A program made the position numbers and the translations under genes. Shown piece after piece: positions 27,853 through 36,354 of a DNA stretch of 64,000 nt (positions are counted from its first letter, which is position 1; each line of letters starts with the position of its first letter). The stretch comes from Pseudacidovorax sp. NFM-22 (GTDB lineage: Bacteria; Pseudomonadota; Gammaproteobacteria; Burkholderiales; Burkholderiaceae_C): positions 992,001-1,056,000 of the forward strand of contig NZ_JACBFY010000001.1 in the NCBI RefSeq assembly GCF_021401245.1, read 5' to 3'. The notes beneath the pieces are model-generated. The model saw only the letters and a list, made by a program, of their open reading frames with translations, was not told where the DNA came from and did not search any database.

Positions 27853-28433
27853 GGACGGGCCTCCGGACCCCAGCCGTAAGCCGGATAGGCACCGGGCCCT
27901 TCGGCGGGGTCGATCAGGCCTGCGGCCATCGCCTCGTGCCGCTGCAGCACATGCGCCAACAGGGCACCGCCGACGCGGTCGCCCGGGTCGAGCCGGCGCA
28001 GCTCGCCCAGCATGAGCCGGGCCTCCTCCAGTTCGCCCAGCCGCAGGTTGAGGTAGGCCAGGCCCTTGAGGGTGAAGAGGTAGAAGCGCACCGCGGCGTC
28101 GTGGCGTGCCTCGTCGTCGGTGGGCGGCCGATCGCCGAAGGTGGGGCCCAAGGCCGTGCGGGCGACGGCAAGTGCGTCCTCGCCGGCCGCCTTGGCGCGC
28201 GCCAGGTCATGGCCGTAGAAGTGAAAGCGGTAGAGCGCGATCAGCGGCACCGGGTGGCGCGGCGCCAGCGCACGGGCACGCTCCAGCAGCGGCAGGGCCT
28301 GGTCGGGCCGGTGGCGCAGCAGGCCGGCGCTGGCGATGAGCGCGGCGGGCTCGGCCGGCAGGCCATGGCCCAGTGCCGAATCGGCAAAGGCGGCCAGTCC
28401 GTCGTCGTCGAAGCCCAGGCCCATGGCGTTCAT
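27849..28433 (-). CDS. TPR-like helical protein
   Basis: A 194-residue protein starting MNAMGLGFDDDGLAAFADSA. TPR-type helices are visible (LPLLERARALAPRHPVPLIA; RFYLFTLKGLAYLNLRLGEL). The protein at 46483-46992 shares the segment RF-LFTLK-A...G E..A...L..LR.LDP and is a paralogue. It is probably an assembly adaptor. It lies in the nifB operon between the HesB-type gene and lrv. Confidence 0.7.
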   Translation of the reverse strand: MNAMGLGFDDDGLAAFADSALGHGLPAEPAALIASAGLLRHRPDQALPLLERARALAPRHPVPLIALYRFHFYGHDLARAKAAGEDALAVARTALGPTFGDRPPTDDEARHDAAVRFYLFTLKGLAYLNLRLGELEEARLMLGELRRLDPGDRVGGALLAHVLQRHEAMAAGLIDPAEGPGAYPAYGWGPEARP

Positions 28434-28467
28434 CACCGTCGCTCCCCTGCCCTGCCGACCGCCACGC

Positions 28468-28881
28468 TCAGTGGACCGGCACGGCCGGGCGGCCGCCGCG
28501 GCCGATGGAACCCACGTCGATGCGGGCCACGCCGGGCGGGGTGGCCGCGGCATCGCCGCTGCTGCTGCAGGCGCAGGGCGCCTGCTTGGGGTCGATGAAG
28601 GCCAGGCCCGACTTGGTGGGCGTGTCCACGAAGTCCATGGTCACGCCGTCCAGCAGCAGCCGGCTTTCGGCGGGCAGGAACAGGCGCAGGCCCTCCCCCA
28701 CCTCCACCACGGCCTCGCCGGGCTGCGGCGCGGCCTCGGCGCTGAACTCCGAGTTGAAGCCCGAGCAGCCGCCCGCGCTGACCACCAGCCGGAAGCCCGC
28801 CGTCGCCGGCAGGCCCGAGAAGCGCAGGATGCGCCGCACGAACTTCTCGGCGGCGGGCGTGAGGGTGAGGCTGGGAAGCAT
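28468..28881 (-). CDS. HesB/IscA-type Fe-S carrier
   Basis: A 137-residue protein, MLPSLTLTPAAEKFVRRILR onward. The A-type carrier cysteines are present as SAGGCSGFNSEF and, near residue 103, APCACSS (C-X-C). The C-terminal 30 residues are an extension beyond the usual carrier length. Third A-type protein in the island besides 35980 and 36370. The ATG at 28881 is chosen over a TTG six bases earlier. Confidence 0.85.
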   Translation of the reverse strand: MLPSLTLTPAAEKFVRRILRFSGLPATAGFRLVVSAGGCSGFNSEFSAEAAPQPGEAVVEVGEGLRLFLPAESRLLLDGVTMDFVDTPTKSGLAFIDPKQAPCACSSSGDAAATPPGVARIDVGSIGRGGRPAVPVH

Positions 28882-28974
28882 GGTCAAGGGTCTCTGTGAT
28901 GGATGAAGAAAAAGGAACAGGCGGGCATGGGCAGGGCGGGGACCAGAGATGCGCCAGCGGCATCGACGCCCCCG

Positions 28975-29098
28975 CGCATCGAAAGGCCGCGGAGCAGGCC
29001 ATGCGCGAACATCCGCGGAACCGGCTTTGCCGGGCCGCTGGATGTGCCCCCCTTGGGGGGGGTTGGCGGAGCGCGAAGCGCGCAGCCTGGGGGGGCTA
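28975..29098 (-). repeat. GC-rich intergenic repeat, family R copy 4 (diverged)
   Basis: On the minus strand it contains GCATGGCCTGCTCCGCGGCC and CGGCAAAGCCGGTTCCGCGG after a C/G-run hairpin. The same blocks occur on the plus strand at 36697-36830, 39122-39306 and 39307-39491. It fills the gap between fdxN and the HesB-type gene. Confidence 0.75.
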
Positions 29099-29290
29099 CA
29101 CCTTCGTTATGCAGCCGTCCACAGGGCACACGGCGATGCACTGCGGCTCGTCGTAGTGGCCTTCGCACTCGGTGCACTTCTTGGGATCGATGACGAAGAT
29201 GCCGCCCTTCTCGCGGATGGCGACATTGGGGCATTCGGGCTCGCAGGCGGAGCACCCGGTGCAGGTGGAGGCGATGATCTTCAGCGACAT
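29096..29290 (-). CDS. fdxN: FdxN-type 2[4Fe-4S] ferredoxin
   Basis: A 64-residue ferredoxin with [12 protein letters not shown] and [18 protein letters not shown]. The extended C-X2-C-X8-C-X3-C second cluster loop is typical of ferredoxins encoded beside nifB. It probably reduces NifB during NifB-co synthesis. It starts 63 bp after the nifB stop. A family R repeat begins at its stop codon. Confidence 0.92.
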
Positions 29291-29353
29291 GGCTTTCCTC
29301 GTGGATTGCTAGGGAGTGGGAGGGGTGAAGCAGAGGCGCGCGCGGGCCTGCCT

Positions 29354-30946
29354 TCAGGCGGCCTGCGCCGCGGTGTAGGCGCCCTGGCGGATGGCGGCAT
29401 CGCCGCGGTCCTGGTGCACCAGCGCGCCGCTGGCGATGCGGCCGCGGTAGTCGTTGAACCAGGCCAGCGCCGCCTTCTCGATGAACTCGCCGACGTACTG
29501 GTCCACCGGCTCGATGCCGGCCGCGGCGAGTTCGTCCTTGGGGCAGGCGCCGATCTTGGCGACCAGCACGGCATGGCAGTCGTTGATGGCACGCACCACC
29601 GACGGCAGCTGCTCGTCGTCGCCGAAGCCGCCCTGGCAGTACAGGTCCACCCGGCGGTGGCCGACGAACAGGGCCTCGTTGCGGCTGACCTCGAAGATCT
29701 GGAACTCGGTCACATGGCCGAAGTGCTCGTTGACGCGGCCACCGCCCTTGGTGGCCACGGCGACCAGCACCTTCAGGTCGTCGGCCACGCCCAGGTTGGC
29801 GGCCTCGGCCAGGGCTTCCTGCTTGGCCTCGTGCTGCGCCTGGCGCTCGGATTCCACCTTGTCCTGGTAGGCGCGGCGGCGGTCGAGGTCGTACACGACC
29901 TCCATCTCCTCAATCTTGTCGAGGGTGAACTCCTCGCTGCGGTCCTCGCCCAGCAGGCCCACGGCGTCGGCCCGGCACTGGCGGCAGTGGCGCATGAGGT
30001 TGGCGCCGCCGGCGCAGGCGTCCTGCACGGCCTTGAGTTCCTGGGCCGTGGGGCCGCGCTGGCCGGTGAGGCCGAACACGGTGCCGTGCTCGGGCTCGGA
30101 GATCAGCGGCATGATGTTGTGCAGGAAGGCGCCGCGCTTCTTGACCTCGCGGTTGACCTCGATCAGGTGCTCGTCGTTGATGCCGGGGATGAGCACCGAG
30201 TTGATCTTGGTGAGCACGCCGCGGGCCGTGAGCATCTCCAGACCCTTCATCTGCTGCTCGTGCAGGATCTTCGCGGCCTCGTAGCCGGTGACACGCTTGT
30301 GCTTCCAGAAGATCCAGGGATAGATCTTCTCGCCCACCGCCGGGTCCACCATGTTGATGGTGATGGTGACGTGGTCGATGTTGTACTTGACGATCTCGTC
30401 CACCTGCTCGGGCAGGGCCAGGCCGTTGGTGGACAGGCACAGCTTGATGTCGGGCGCCTGCTCGTGGAGCATGCGCATGGTGTCGAAGGTCTTGGCCGGG
30501 TTGGCCAGGCTGTCGCCGGGGCCGGCAATGCCCAGCACGGTCATCTGCGGGATCTCGCTGGCGACGGCCAGCACCTTCTTGACGGCCTGGTCGGGCGTGA
30601 GCTTCTGGCTGACGACGCCTGGCCGGCTCTCGTTGCTGCAGTCGTACTTGCGATTGCAGTAGTTGCACTGGATATTGCAGGCGGGCGCCACGGCCACGTG
30701 CATGCGGGCATAGTGGTGGTGGGCCTCTTCGGAATAGCAGGGATGGTTCTTGACCTTCTCCCAGATCTCGGGGGGCATGTCCTCCGGGCCGCCCGAGGAG
30801 CCGCAGCTGGCCTTGCCCTCGCCACCCTGGGTGCCGCAGCCGCCGCCCGCGTCGGGCAGTTCGAACTTGGCGCCGAGGGGCTTGATCTGCCCGATGCCGA
30901 CGTAGGTGGTGGCGGGCATGGTGCTGGCTGGGCTGGCTTGCTGCAT
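29354..30946 (-). CDS. nifB: NifB, radical SAM FeMo-co precursor synthase
   Basis: A 530-residue protein starting [20 protein letters not shown]. Radical SAM cysteines are Cys90, Cys94 and Cys97 ([15 protein letters not shown]), with GPGDSLANP as SAM-site motif. The C-terminal third (from about residue 385, [20 protein letters not shown]) is a NifX-like domain that can hold NifB-co. It carries out the SAM-dependent carbide insertion forming NifB-co. It heads the long minus-strand operon ending at 19524. ATG 30946 is about 42 nt after the predicted start site. Confidence 0.97.
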
Positions 30947-30998
30947 GGATGTACCTCGCGGGGTGGCGGCACGACGGGGCCGCATACGGGGGCCTTAC

Positions 30999-31014
30999 TG
31001 CCAAAAACATGCCA
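30999..31014 (-). promoter_or_regulatory. sigma54 promoter of the nifB operon
   Basis: The minus strand reads TGGCATGTTTTTGGCA, with GG at 31013-31012, ten bases, and GC at 31001-31000. The predicted start site is near 30988. Confidence 0.78.
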
Positions 31015-31119
31015 CGCGCTCGTTGGGCTCCAGCGTTGGGTTTTTCGCGGTTTCGCGTTGGTTTTGGAGCGTTTGTCTGGCGGGGTTGCGACAGGGCTTG
31101 ATGTGTGTCGCGTTGGGTG

Positions 31120-31135
31120 TGTTGGCGTTGCGACA
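31120..31135. promoter_or_regulatory. NifA-binding site upstream of nifB
   Basis: A perfect TGT-N10-ACA (TGTTGGCGTTGCGACA), about 107 bp upstream of the nifB -24 element. Confidence 0.75.
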
Positions 31136-31166
31136 AAGGGCGTTGGTTGCTTGGGTGTGTGGTTCG

Positions 31167-31290
31167 ACCGTTGACGCTGGACGGGCGCCTGGCTGGCTTG
31201 GGTCGCGGTCTTTACCGTTGACGCTGGATGGGCGCCTGGCTGGCTTGTGTGGCCATCTTTACCGTTGACGCTGGATGGGCGCCTGGCTGA
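31167..31290 (+). repeat. 47-bp tandem repeat, three copies (last partial)
   Basis: Units begin ACCGTTGACGCTGG at 31167, 31214 and 31261, exactly 47 bp apart. Unit two keeps GGGCGCCTGGCTGGCTTG with a few changes, and unit three stops after about 30 bp at GCCTGGCTGA. It immediately precedes structured element A. Confidence 0.85.
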
Positions 31291-31511
31291 CCCCGGCGCC
31301 CAGCGCGGCCCCACATGCTGCGTCCCTCGCTGAACGCTCGGGCAACCTGCGGTGCTCGCCGGATGAGCGCATGGCGTAACTCGCTGCGCGCTTCGCGCTC
31401 CGCTCAAACAAACGCCATGAGTCAGTCACAACCGGCCCGCGGGGGCCGCGGGCCTCGCTCATCCGGCTGCGCTCCTCGGCGCAGCCTGAGGGGCCGCGCT
31501 GGGCGCCGGGG
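31291..31511 (+). repeat. structured repeat element, copy A
   Basis: A 163-bp core (31320-31482) is flanked on each side, at exactly 7 nt, by perfect 22-bp complementary arms (31291-31312 and 31490-31511). The core itself has internal mirror blocks: GCCGGATGAGCG with CGCTCATCCGGC, CATGGCGT with ACGCCATG, and a CCCGCGG-type hairpin. Core copy B lies inverted at 31825-31987 with three differences. This 1.2-kb gap between nifB and nifA contains no convincing gene. Confidence 0.85.
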
Positions 31512-31790
31512 CCAGCCAGGCTCAAGGTTTGGCGTGGACCGCGCCCCTTACCGCCCGCTCCAGACCTCGCCACCACACGGCGCGGCTTGCGGGTCGGTCA
31601 CCGTCGCGGGTTACGCCTGCGTCTGCGTCTGCACCTGTGCCTGTGCGTTTGGCCCTGGCTGTGCCCGTGTGCGATGTGCTCGCTGTCGCTGTTGCCGCTG
31701 TTGGGACTTCTGCGGCTGCGAGCTGAGGAACCGGCGACGAGCGCTGGTGCCTGGCGAGAGCGGGCGTGACGGTCACCTCATCACGAGCCC

Positions 31791-32021
31791 GGCCTGGGGT
31801 GTGCGGCCTGGGCGCCCTGTGGACGCGCCGAGGAGCGCAGCCGGATGAGCGAGGCCCGCGGCCCCCGCGGGCCGGTTGTGACTGACTCATGGCGTTTGTT
31901 CGAGCGGAGCGCGTAGCGCGTAGCGAGTTACGCCATGCGCTCATCCGGCGAGCACCGCAGGTTGCCCGAGCGTTCAGCGAGGGACGCGGCCGCTGGGCGC
32001 CCAGGCCGCACACCCCAGGCC
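31791..32021 (-). repeat. structured repeat element, copy B (inverted)
   Basis: The same 163-bp core as copy A in opposite orientation (31825-31987), again flanked at exactly 7 nt by perfect complementary arms, here 27 bp long (31791-31817 and 31995-32021). The arm sequence is different from that of copy A, yet fully self-complementary. The 279 bp between copies A and B and the 121 bp from here to nifA show no gene. Confidence 0.85.
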
Positions 32022-32142
32022 GGGCGCTTCGTCCAGGGCCCACGGACAGAACCGCCACTACAGCCGCTACAGCCGCTGCCAACAAGCGTCAGAGCCGAAA
32101 GTCCGCACCAGCAAAAAGACGTTGCGCAACGGCCCAAGCCGC

Positions 32143-33873
32143 TCAGAACTTCCTCACCTCGATCCCATGCTTGCGCAGCGCATAGCCCATCTGCCGCGGC
32201 GTGATCTTGAGCAGCCGGGCCGCCTTGGCCTGGACCCAGCCGCAGTGCTCCATGGCCCAGATCAGGCGGGCATGCTCGCCCTCGGGCTTGTCACTGAGCC
32301 CCGACGGACCCGCCACCCCTACGGCCTCGGCGGGCATCGGTGCCGAAGGAGCTGCCGCCGCCACCACCACCTCGGCTGGCAGCACCGGCTGCGGCGGCAG
32401 CACGGGCTGCTGCGGCAGCACAGACTGCGGCGGCAACCCAGGCACCTCGGTGATGGGAATGTCCACCGGCCGCCCCGGCCGCACCGCGTCCTCGCGCTCG
32501 ATGTGGTGCAGCACCTGCGTCAGACAACGGTTGCCCTGGCACGGAAAGGCCAGGTCGCTGATGACCTCGGCATGCGTCATCGTCGCGGTGCGCTCCACGC
32601 AGTTCTCCAGCTCACGCACATTGCCCGGCCAGTAGCAACTGCTCAGCACCCGCATGGCGCCCGGATCGAAACGCATGCGCCGGCCGTTCTCGCGGTTGAA
32701 GCGGTCCAGGAAGTGCTGCGCCATCGCCGGGATGTCCTCGCGACGCTCCCGCAGCGGCGGCAGCTGGATGCTCACCACGTTGATGCGGTAGTACAGGTCG
32801 GCCCGGAACTCACCGGCCTGCACCATGCGCTCCAGGTTGCGGTTGGTCGCCAGGATCAGCCGCACGTCCACCTTCACCGGCGTGCCGCCGCCCACCCGCT
32901 CGAACTGCCGCTCCTGCAGCACCCGCAGCAGCTTGGCCTGGAACGAGGCCGAGATGTCGCCGATCTCGTCGAGGAAGAGCGTGCCACCATGCGCCATCTC
33001 GAAGCGGCCCTTGCGCTGGCCCTGCGCGCCGGTGAAGGAGCCCTTCTCGTGCCCGAAGAGCTCGCTCTCCAGCAGCGATTCGGTCAGCGCCGCACAGTTG
33101 ACGCAGACGAAGGCCGCCTCGTGCCGCGGCGACAGGCTGTGGATGGCGCGGGCGATCACCTCCTTGCCCGTGCCGCTCTCGCCGCGCAGCAGCACCGTGG
33201 TGCGCGCCGGCGCCACCTGGTGCACCTGCTCGAACACCGCCTGGATCGGCGCCGACACGCCCACCACATGGTCGATGCGGTGCTGCGGCTTGAGCGCCTT
33301 CTGGATGCGCCGCACCTCGTCCTGCATGCTGTCGTGGCCCGCCGCCACGGTGCGCTGCAGCAGCAGCGCCTGGCCCATCAGCGTGGCCACCATGCGCAGC
33401 AGCTGCAGATCCTCGGCGAAGACGCGCGTGCCCGCGTTGTTGACGCACTGCATGGCCAGCACGCCCAGCGTGCGCCGGTCGGCACGGATCGGCATGGCCA
33501 GCATGGCGATGCTGTCGAGCCCGTCGCCTCCCCCCGTTCGGTTGAGGAAGAGCGGCTCGGCATGCACGTCGGGCACGATGGCCGGCACGCCGCTGGCGAA
33601 CACGCGGCCCACGATGCCCTCGCCCACACGGAACAGCAGGCGCTGCTGCTCTTCCTGCGACAGCCCGGCCGCGCACAGCCCCCGCAGCGGCCCGCCGGCC
33701 TCGCCCAGCACCACGAAGGCGCGGCGCCAGTCGAAGGCGTGCAGCAGGTAGTTCAGCGCCTCGCGGAAGGTCTTGCCCACGTCGAGCGAGGCGGACAGCG
33801 TCTTGCTGACCTCATACACCGCGTCCAGCTCGCGGCGCGTCTGGGCTTCCTTGGAACGTGCAATCACCATCAT
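32143..33873 (-). CDS. nifA: NifA, sigma54-dependent activator of nif genes (O2-sensitive class)
   Basis: 576 residues. GAF domain about 20-175; AAA+ domain with Walker A GESGTGKE (231-238), sigma54-contact loop GSFTGA (279-284 region; GAFTGA variant) and LFLDEIGD Walker B; C-terminal HTH ([20 protein letters not shown]). Cys413, Cys425, Cys445 and Cys450 give C-X11-C-X19-C-X4-C, the cluster of NifA proteins that sense O2/redox directly. No nifL is present. A Pro-rich linker with repeated QPVLPP-like units joins AAA+ and HTH. It is divergent from iscS; no sigma54 site of its own was seen. Confidence 0.96.
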
Positions 33874-33977
33874 GGGGACCTCGCTTTCCGCCGCCCGCCC
33901 CGTCCACCGGGCCGCCCGGCACCGGCGGGCGCGGGCACGTCGGCTTTGTCGGCTTCATCGCAAGAAACATACCCAAT

Positions 33978-33993
33978 CGTCAAAGCCGTGACA
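33978..33993. promoter_or_regulatory. near-consensus NifA site between nifA and iscS
   Basis: The minus strand reads TGT-N10-ACG (one mismatch to TGT-N10-ACA), about 148 bp upstream of the iscS -24 element. The rest of this 316-bp intergenic region shows only the iscS promoter. Confidence 0.45.
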
Positions 33994-34139
33994 GCCCCCG
34001 GATGCACCGCCGCGGCGCCCCCGGACATTCGCGACAAACAGGACATGCGCCGCCGCGGCGGACCTTGATCCAGCGCACAAATCCAACAAAAGATGCCCGC
34101 CAAGCCCATCGGGAGTGGGATCGGCACGCAAACCGGCCG

Positions 34140-34155
34140 TGGCACCGATGTTGCA
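34140..34155 (+). promoter_or_regulatory. sigma54 promoter of the nif isc operon
   Basis: TGGCACCGATGTTGCA, with GG at 34141-34142, ten bases, and GC at 34153-34154. It is a near-perfect match to the RpoN consensus. The predicted start site is near 34166, 24 nt before the ATG. Confidence 0.85.
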
Positions 34156-34189
34156 GAAGCGTGTGGGTCTAGCCATCCAGGAGCCCGCC

Positions 34190-35434
34190 ATGTCCGACCT
34201 TCCCCGCGACACAGCCACCGCCCGCCCCGCGCGTCCCATCTACCTGGACTACGCCGCCACCACGCCGGTGGACCGCCGCGTGGCCACGCGCATGCTGCCC
34301 TACCTGAGCGAGATCTACGGCAACCCCGCCAGCCGCTCGCATGCCTACGGCTGGGCCGCCGAGGAGGCGGTAGAGCTGGCCCGCGAGCAGGTGTGCGCCC
34401 TGGTCAATGCCGACCCGCGCGAGATCGTCTGGACCTCGGGCGCCACCGAGTCCAACAACCTTGCCATCAAGGGCGTGGCCCGCTTCTACGCCGGCAAGGG
34501 CCGCCACCTGGTGACCGTGGCCACCGAGCACAAGGCCGTGCTCGACAGCATGCGCGAGCTGGAGCGCGAGGGTTATGAAGTGACGGTCCTACCGGTCGAT
34601 GCCGACGGCCTGGTCGACCCGGAACGCTTCGCCGCCGCCCTGCGGCCCGACACGCTGCTGGCCTCGGTCATGGCCGTCAACAACGAGACCGGCGTGGTGC
34701 AGGACATCGACACGCTGGGCGCCCTGTGCCGTGCCAAGGGCGTGTTCTTCCACGTCGATGCGGCACAAGCCGCCGGCAAGATCGCCATCGACCTGGCGCA
34801 ATGGCCGGTGGACCTGATGTCGCTGTCGGCCCACAAGCTCTATGGCCCCAAGGGCATCGGGGCGCTGTACGTGCGCCGCAAGCCGCGCGTGCGGCTCGAC
34901 GCCCAGATGCACGGCGGCGGCCACGAGCGCGGCATGCGCTCGGGCACCCTGCCCGTGCACCAGATCGTGGGCATGGGCGAGGCCTTCTGGCTAGCCCGCG
35001 AGCAGATGGCCGCCGACAACGCCCGCATCCTCGCCCTGCGCGAGCGGCTGTGGAACGGCCTGCGCTCGCTGGAGGCCGTGGCCCTGAATGGCCATGCCGA
35101 GCGGCGCGCGCCCGGCTATCTCAACGTGAGCTTCAACTACGTGGAAGGCGAGTCGTTGCTGATGGGCATCAAGGGCGTGGCCGTGTCCTCGGGCTCGGCC
35201 TGCACCTCGGCCAGCCTGGAGCCCAGCTACGTGCTGCGCGCCATGGGCCGCAGCGACGAACTGGCGCACAGCTCGGTGCGCTTTTCCATCGGCCGCTTCA
35301 CCACCGAGGCCGAGATCGACGCCACCGTCGCCCAGGTGCGCGAAGTGGTGCAGCGCCTGCGCGCCATGAGCCCGCTGTGGGACCTGGTGCAGGCCGGCGT
35401 CGACCTCGACTCCATCCAGTGGGCCGAGCACTGA
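34190..35434 (+). CDS. iscS: cysteine desulfurase, IscS/NifS family
   Basis: A 414-residue enzyme starting [20 protein letters not shown]. Lys216 ([10 protein letters not shown]) binds PLP and Cys338 ([20 protein letters not shown]) is the sulfur-carrying cysteine. The C-terminus, IQWAEH, is the IscU-binding tail of IscS, so this is the IscS type although nif-regulated. It heads iscS-iscU-iscA-iscA-hscA-fdx behind a strong sigma54 promoter. Confidence 0.95.
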
Positions 35435-35488
35435 GCGGCCGGGCCCCCTGACTCTCCTCTTCCAACCTTCGACACGGAGCAAGGCTTC

Positions 35489-35941
35489 ATGGCATACAGC
35501 GACAAGGTCATCGACCACTACGAGAACCCCCGCAACGTCGGCGCCTTCGAGGCCGGCGACGAGAACGTCGGCACCGGCATGGTGGGCGCACCGGCCTGCG
35601 GCGACGTGATGCGCCTGCAGATCCGCGTGAACGCCGACGGCGTGATCGAGGACGCCAGGTTCAAGACCTACGGCTGCGGCTCGGCCATCGCGTCGAGCTC
35701 GCTGGTGACCGAGTGGGTGCGCGGCCGCACGCTGGACGAGGCGCTGGCCATCAAGAACGCGCAGATCGCCGAAGAGCTGGCCCTGCCGCCCGTCAAGATC
35801 CACTGCTCCATCCTGGCCGAGGACGCCATCAAGGCCGCCGTGGCCGACTTCCGCGCCCGCCAGGCGACGCGCCAGGCCGCTGCCGGCGAAGCCCAGGTGC
35901 TGGCCGAGCAGCCGGCCTGCGCCAGCGCCGAGCGCCACTGA
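35489..35941 (+). CDS. iscU: IscU Fe-S cluster scaffold
   Basis: A 150-residue protein, [20 protein letters not shown] onward. Ligands Cys37, Asp39, Cys63 and Cys106 are present and LPPVK (99-103) is the HscA recognition motif. It takes the place of NifU, which is absent from the window. The last 25 residues ([20 protein letters not shown]) exceed the usual IscU end. It starts 54 bp after iscS. Confidence 0.95.
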
Positions 35942-35979
35942 CTTCCCTTCTCTTTTCGCCCCTTTCCAAGGAGAACCCG

Positions 35980-36354
35980 ATGGACGCCATCGCCCTCAAC
36001 CCCGCGGTCGATCCGATCGCCATGCCTGCCCTGCTCGAGTTCACGTCCCGCGCTGCCGCCAAGGTGGCCTCGCTGATCGAAGAGGAAGGCAACCCCGCCC
36101 TCAAGCTGCGCCTGTATGTCACGGGCGGCGGCTGCTCGGGCTTCCAGTACGGCTTCGCCTTCGACGACCAGGTCGCCGAAGACGACACCACCGTGGTCAC
36201 CGAGGGCGTGGCGCTGCTGGTGGATGCGATGAGCCAGCAGTACCTGCTGGGCGCGCAGGTGGACTACGAGGAAGGCCTGGAAGGCTCGCGCTTCGTGATC
36301 CACAACCCCAATGCGCAGACCACCTGCGGCTGCGGCTCGTCCTTCTCCGTCTGA
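35980..36354 (+). CDS. A-type Fe-S carrier (ErpA/IscA-like)
   Basis: A 124-residue protein starting [20 protein letters not shown]. Conserved cysteines are Cys52 ([11 protein letters not shown]) and Cys116/Cys118 ([11 protein letters not shown]). The N-terminal extension before the fold and the [14 protein letters not shown] segment are closer to ErpA than to IscA. A good ribosome site, AAGGAGAA, precedes the ATG. Confidence 0.92.

Follow-up and report, generated by a model that had tools for sequence, protein, structure and literature searches.

The nearest published kind of element that was found is that of the self-complementary dimeric TIR repeats (PMC3733652). According to the accessible portion of that article, TIRtrons and TIRYT are dispersed self-complementary inverted repeats, often dimers, which are linked to Y1 tyrosine transposases. 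The same portion describes REPs as sequences of 20-40 bp with GTAG or CGTC tags, and the palindromes of REP/BIME as often opposite in orientation and located mostly between convergent or tandem genes; it makes no mention of names in Burkholderi-, nor of Acidovorax, Delftia or Variovorax. In the accessible parts of the articles concerned, REPs and BIMEs are tied to RAYTs (PMC3733652, PMC8266576, PMC6006769), the substrate of RAYT (TnpA-REP) being single-stranded folded DNA (PMC8266576), and attC sites are presented as hairpins of kept structure that are recognised as folded single-stranded DNA with a strand preference (PMC6393395). Ralstonia and Burkholderia are not mentioned in the accessible text of a survey of stem-loop families in 40 genomes (PMC2267715). 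No description of the family reported here was found in the open-access literature, as judged by titles and the beginnings of abstracts, a scope which most subscription papers fall outside.

The window, a stretch of 64,000 nucleotides from the genome of Pseudacidovorax sp. NFM-22, contains at 31281-32025 (no strand assigned) one unit of a dispersed repeat family, in which two branched hairpins of ~240 nt face each other, with outer arms of ~40 nt. As originally proposed, the setting is that of nifB and nifA: the flanking genes, both on the - strand, are NifB-like (Radical SAM and Nitro_FeMo-Co) and NifA-like (GAF, sigma-54 and Fis-type HTH). A 163-nt core can be read directly twice, at 31320-31482 (+) and, inverted, at 31825-31987 (-), the copies being 98% identical with three differences. 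Half A (31281-31521, + strand) encloses its core between outer arms at 31281-31322 and 31480-31521, and half B (31787-32025, - strand) between arms at 31787-31827 and 31985-32025. The original prediction had placed fully complementary arms at 7 nt from each core. The spacers are present and the 22-bp arms of copy A are perfect (31291-31312 with 31490-31511), but the inverted-repeat scan revealed that both pairs are longer than was claimed, reaching 42 nt in A and 41 nt in B, each with 93% complementarity. The unit, which comprises inverted repeats I1-I3, has an interior of ~265 nt between the arms (31522-31786, no strand) that is weakly conserved across species (0.72 and 0.71 against two orthologues).

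Besides its pair of outer arms, each half contains a small hairpin, a mismatched but conserved helix (CTGCGRTGCTCG / CTGCGCTYCTCG), a variable stem and a pair of branch hairpins. On the + strand of half A, the variable stem GCCGGATGAGCG / CGCTCATCCGGC (31358-31467, with 31358-31369 pairing to 31456-31467) corresponds to the stem that covaries in the main subfamily. The first branch stem, CATGGCGT / ACGCCATG (31370-31419), has a loop that holds a conserved AACTCGC and ACAA, and the second branch hairpin is GGCCCGCGG-GGG-CCGCGGGCC (31434-31454). The mirror blocks that had been noticed inside the core proved to be stems within this one branched fold. The predicted fold of half A has an energy of -172.8 kcal/mol, compared with -122.1 ± 5.1 in 200 shuffles (z -9.9). 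For the whole 750 nt z was -26 against 20 shuffles, and the predicted fold pairs the two halves together. By these predictions, the folding of the window halves is not a matter of chance, and the initial observation was correct, yet understated.

Core matches were found at 25 places in the genome of the window, mostly in pairs some hundred bases apart. A covariance model, R1, was built from 17 cores of this genome with a structure drawn by hand. It matched all 15 Pseudacidovorax genomes (2-27 matches each) and, with at most 11 candidates scored per genome and strict filters, 140 of 250 sampled genomes of the bacterial family, in 87 of 141 genera. More than half of the 250 genomes in one bacterial family hence carry a large structured repeat which is absent from Rfam 15. 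A class-level sample gave 20 genomes with a match out of 321; three of these belong to the same family, and the matches of the other 17 were short and weaker. No match was found in phages with one 241-nt query, in plasmids with one 157-nt query or in viral contigs with one exact pattern. A solo hairpin, GATGCTCGCC..GGCTGCGCTTCTC, was considered as an independent module; the pattern matched one locus in each of 6 out of 40 genomes, and the idea was dropped because five of the six loci adjoin a core.

Two matches were present at 68 of a first set of 96 loci and one at the remaining 28. All 68 two-match loci converge (+ then -), 66 having been tallied together and two (L003 and L027) added from the match list. 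Among 37 further loci, 28 had two matches, all + then -, once three weak matches overlapping a stronger opposite-strand match were left out; an exception was seen outside these two sets, in genome G157, with two + matches and then one - inside 1 kb. The arm-to-arm span was 513-890, with a median of 672 (76 units). These counts show that the unit of the family is the pair.

In the main subfamily two arm kinds were distinguished, X (GGCTCA.. / ..ATCGCC) and Y (TTCA.. / ..AGGCGC). Of seven complete main-subfamily pairs judged by eye, six consist of one X and one Y half, in either genomic direction, and the seventh of an X half with a diverged partner. Other genera show the X and Y signatures as well. 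The window copy is a member of a second subfamily, whose arm signatures are different, and at four loci of other genera (L192, L194, L196 and L198) a quite different arm kind surrounds the same core. A core-less X palindrome with a TTTTTCA loop was matched nine times, in 5 of 15 genomes. In the aligned loci (L069 being cut by a contig end) it always faces a Y half with a core, and therefore belongs to the element. The interiors of several copies (L003 1917-1988, L008 1724-1835, L012 1723-1835) hold other palindromic repeats (TTCGACAAGCTCAGGGCGAACGG; CCCTCTCCCCTCGCGGGAGAGGG).

Compared with the described systems, the family is self-complementary and occurs in dimers, as TIR repeats and TIRtrons do. 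It differs in that it does not flank the Y1 gene of Pseudacidovorax (10 loci, Pseudacidovorax only), and it displays a branched covarying fold and a strand choice, TIR repeats having been compared by their description. With REP, BIME and REPIN it shares orientation and placement, but its halves are of ~240 nt with a three-way branch instead of a palindrome of 20-40 bp, and the tags are nearly absent from the foot of the halves (GTAG in 1 and CGTC in 10 of 206). Nor was a RAYT gene flanked by the repeat, the 10 Y1/RAYT loci of Pseudacidovorax examined giving no R1 match; a Y1/RAYT gene adjoining element copies was thereby rejected for these loci. A Y1/RAYT-like gene (PF01797) was found once per genome in 14 of 15 genomes, and in G000 the nearest element copy lies ~29 kb from it. 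The genome that has no PF01797 gene, G002, has only two element matches. In two loci that were read (L228, at G000:C16:138034, and its orthologues), the single Y1/RAYT-like gene precedes a gene which, from its N-terminal sequence, we take to be glutamate-synthase-like. Like MITEs, the family is short, non-coding, multi-copy and gained as a unit. It differs from them in its unlike ends (X and Y arms), its branched covarying fold and the lack of a detected target duplication: the longest word common to the outside flanks was 4.63, compared with 4.60 ± 0.10 for shuffled partners (76 units, whose ends are uncertain). By eye only, short similar words were seen at both element ends.

For the tallies of locus grouping, identity, arm pairing, nearest relatives, loops, arm changes and strand folding, the best 150 of 164 matches (alignment A4) were used together with matches re-entered from the 96-locus search. 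The arm-pairing, loop and strand-folding sets exclude halves under 140 nt, duplicates, L191 (which coincides with L214), three antisense matches that were weak and overlapping, and halves too near a locus end. Comparison of flanks sorted the loci into sets of up to 13 each. Across 108 pairwise comparisons drawn from ten sets, the identity was 0.91-0.92 in cores, 0.89-0.90 in arms and 0.91 in the distal, mostly coding flanks, against 0.67 in interiors and 0.69-0.70 in near flanks; the comparisons are non-independent (10 groups), are forced global alignments with a floor near 0.45-0.6, and in 10 of the 108 one distal flank was unmatched (contig ends or rearrangement). The halves are conserved like the distal flanks, and the interiors and near flanks have been turned over. 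For 126 halves, the nearest relative was the orthologous half in 88 cases; in 36 it came from another locus and in 2 it was the partner half. Descent dominates, and exchange occurs too.

The difference between the arms of A and B, which pair all the same, had been taken as covariation. It is not covariation by itself, because the halves of a unit carry two different arm kinds; real covariation was obtained from orthologues, cores and arms. In the orthologue of the window unit in G010, for instance, a change of CAGCGCGG to CAGGGCGG is compensated by CCGCGCTG to CCGCCCTG. Among 146 distinct cores, 95.5% of cells pair, compared with 76.3% when shuffled and 37-42% with slid partners, and 34 of 44 core pairs have changes on both sides. 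The count of further pair types, one of five covariation measures, was not above shuffles (71 vs 74.5). Since the 146-core alignment was fitted to the structure, it leans towards it; an unfitted 17-core alignment gave the same picture (93.1% vs 84.6%, 19 of 44 pairs). The outer arms of 206 halves had a mean pairing score of 62.5 with their own partner and 32.3 with mismatched partners, the scores of L001 and L026 being low since the model match begins inside the small hairpin. Flanks left unpaired in other copies, the outcome that had been named as fatal to the idea, were thus not encountered. At ten orthologous loci the arms displayed 104 compensated double changes, compared with ~3.6 expected; broken doubles numbered 13 and single changes 107. 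The arms thus offer a dense supply of natural covariation. As judged from the aligned arms, these counts show each half to be maintained by compensatory change. Selection for structure, as originally suggested, is strongly supported at the level of sequence comparison by covariation in cores and orthologous outer arms and by the paired arms of other copies.

The complement of the sense strand of the core is called F here. In both halves it points from the interior outwards and is therefore on opposite genomic strands in the two; in the window it is the - strand for core A and the + strand for core B. Of 209 halves at 129 loci, F was predicted to be the better-folding strand in 196 (122 loci) when RNA parameters were used and in 203 (128 loci) under DNA parameters. 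One strand is likewise favoured in the folding of integron attC, from which the family differs in having the GTTRRRY / RYYYAAC boxes in just 11 of 206 arm pairs, in its halves being arranged as inverted pairs and in that no gene cassettes were seen. A DNA cruciform had been put forward among the possible structures. A symmetric, two-stranded one would show no strand choice, and it is disfavoured by the DNA-parameter figures.

The same direction was apparent from the substitutions. Single changes in orthologous arms gave 59 A.C against 11 G.T in sense, an A.C there being a G-U on F, and by half-group 16 favoured F and 1 did not, with 3 ties (p 0.0003). Wobbles were distributed 135 to 24 in the cores and 278 to 107 in all outer arms. 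The core figure leaves out one fixed column, which is T.G in sense in 111 of 141 cells and is opposed to the F-strand rule. The sign was identical in half-groups a and b, despite F being on opposite genomic strands, so a replication-strand mutation bias cannot explain it, since it would give opposite signs. The placement of the F strands thereby provides a built-in control that sets single-strand selection apart from cruciform or mutational accounts. As neither a cruciform nor a replication bias fits the strand choice, the fold is kept as a single strand, namely that strand of each half which is directed outward from the interior.

Hairpin tips of the GNA/GNNA type were found in 293 of 498 cases on F and in 12 of 498 on the other strand. 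The GNA share of one hairpin (98/189) is soft because its tips can fold in two registers, and the branch tip of copy A itself prefers the register with an AAG loop on F. The loops are mainly GNA triloops, the tetraloops being GNYA (14) and GNRA (5). Some seemingly unpaired tips (GTGAAC GCA GTGAAC on F) could be closing via tandem G-A pairs on F. According to the accessible portion of PMC6479982, GNA loops are very stable in DNA.

The best explanation, to which a probability of about 0.5 is assigned, is that the family is a dispersed, non-coding, once-mobile repeat of two convergent branched hairpins that would be recognised as a folded single strand. DNA is slightly favoured over RNA, because the loops are mainly GNA with few GNRA and the preference is more uniform with DNA parameters. 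A putative host or transposon protein would recognise the F strand in its folded form, as single-stranded DNA that replication or transcription exposes, by analogy with the HUH enzymes that read REP hairpins and the integrases that read attC. The family may have spread through such recognition, and settled copies at gene 3' ends may stay selected because either that recognition or the fold as such has a use or is still in operation. The unit, the covariation, the constraint and the strand choice are observed; which factor reads the fold and how the copies moved are what we infer. Against this explanation, copies at settled loci have not decayed, as those of a purely selfish repeat should; no recognising protein, target-site duplication or autonomous copy was found among the copies seen; and the tolerance of G-U and the 3'-end placement would suit RNA equally well. 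A bolder proposal, speculative and unlikely to hold in all its parts, would be that Burkholderiaceae relatives have a novel class of folded, strand-specific element of single-stranded DNA, with GNA-capped twin hairpins whose outward strand is read by a putative dedicated protein and which are kept by the host at fixed intergenic positions across species. With this system one can test directly if repeats of this kind are selfish, work as RNA or serve as places where single-stranded DNA is processed.

An RNA element is possible, although on balance doubtful. Read-through or outward transcripts would fold as F and serve in mRNA 3'-end protection, attenuation or regulation, the pair acting for both directions. 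The tolerance of G-U on one strand and the greater stability of F with RNA parameters are consistent with this, as is the gene context. The 89 loci analysed comprised 32 between convergent genes, 55 between tandem genes and merely 2 between divergent ones (gene directions were taken from codon composition, not annotation, and orthologues were counted separately), which shows that the copies are nearly always located where at least one gene ends. However, no intrinsic terminator (hairpin followed by a T run) was found within the window unit; the sole site in 30950-32250, at 31021, is outside the unit and represents no more than was obtained with shuffles. A sigma-70-type promoter was not found in 30950-32250 either. 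At seven tandem loci the half nearer to the gene was better kept in four and the farther one in three, which does not point to a 3'-UTR role, and transcripts from gene ends reach the sense form first. GNRA loops are rare, and the family has no match at the curated threshold in Rfam 15: none was obtained up to E 1 for window positions 28000-36000, and the six obtained up to E 0.1 at 12 other loci were all to microRNA families, far under gathering scores.

Less probable still is that the copies have no function and are old insertions whose arms would be kept complementary by template switching (palindrome self-correction) and by copy-to-copy gene conversion. Local conversion would be expected to give just what is seen in the window, namely nearly identical cores A and B with arms that differ, and the 38 of 126 halves with the nearest relative outside the orthologous locus, as well as the exchanged or lost halves of the L012 locus (see below), agree with it. 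The main failing of this account is that correction offers no reason for favouring one folding strand, a strand which switches genomic strand from one half to the other. In addition, conservation is higher in unpaired than in paired columns (0.874 vs 0.793), and the halves resist the change that interiors undergo.

The history of the copies was evaluated at loci where the element is missing from some genomes. It is absent from G002, G003 and G004 at the L021 locus, and from these and G012 at the L017 locus. The element-free sites contained only chance-length stems of 6-9 bp and gave no model match, the stem scan covering ~230 nt per site, which is too short to take in the full arms of the two filled controls used for each locus. 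As there is no palindrome at these sites, the pair came whole at the two loci. At the L012 locus, both halves are full in G000, and G008 has a core-less X palindrome, where G000 has a full half, together with a full Y half; the core may therefore have been gained or lost within a single half. In G011 a deletion fuses the halves (L262), so that the 5' part of the X half continues into the Y half's 3' part, the junction being GGCCCGTC. In G010, foreign IS-like sequence breaks the core of the Y half at the start of L261. By these sequence comparisons, units have been gained whole, and halves are open to exchange or loss.

It had also been suggested that the element inserts into the loops of existing palindromes, which for the unit does not agree with the element-free sites at the two loci, a core change within one half being still possible. 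As a general account, insertion of the core into pre-existing palindrome loops is very improbable: core-less X palindromes with the TTTTTCA loop, the same core within other-kind arms and a structured element nested in a hairpin loop at L027 would fit it, but the element-free sites are not palindromes, the X and Y signatures travel with the element across genera, and the core-less X faces a Y half with a core and is hence part of the element.

The nested element, at ~805-970 of L027 (the nif locus of G011), has GGAAGGTG..CACCTTCC ends, presumably IS5-like, and is located within the loop of the small hairpin in one half. At the same spots as L021 and L017, another hairpin family was found in six and five other genomes, respectively. 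This second family (CGGACGCAGAGGACGC.. / ..GCGTCCTCTGCGTCCGG and variants) is found in the sister clade at these intergenic positions, and the nine examples scanned have stems of 10-19 bp. Its loci (L236-L238, L241-L243, L251, L252 and L254-L256) are ~50-250 nt before the aligned gene.

Tandem copies of the arm foot outside the element ends were rejected as a general trait (3 of 116 ends at ≥75% identity, 0.2 expected), though they are striking at the window. Three tandem repeats of ~47 bp are located at 31140-31280, just outside the left arm of half A, and the last two end in the arm's own foot (GCGCCTGGCTG); comparable iterations were seen outside L013 and L065.
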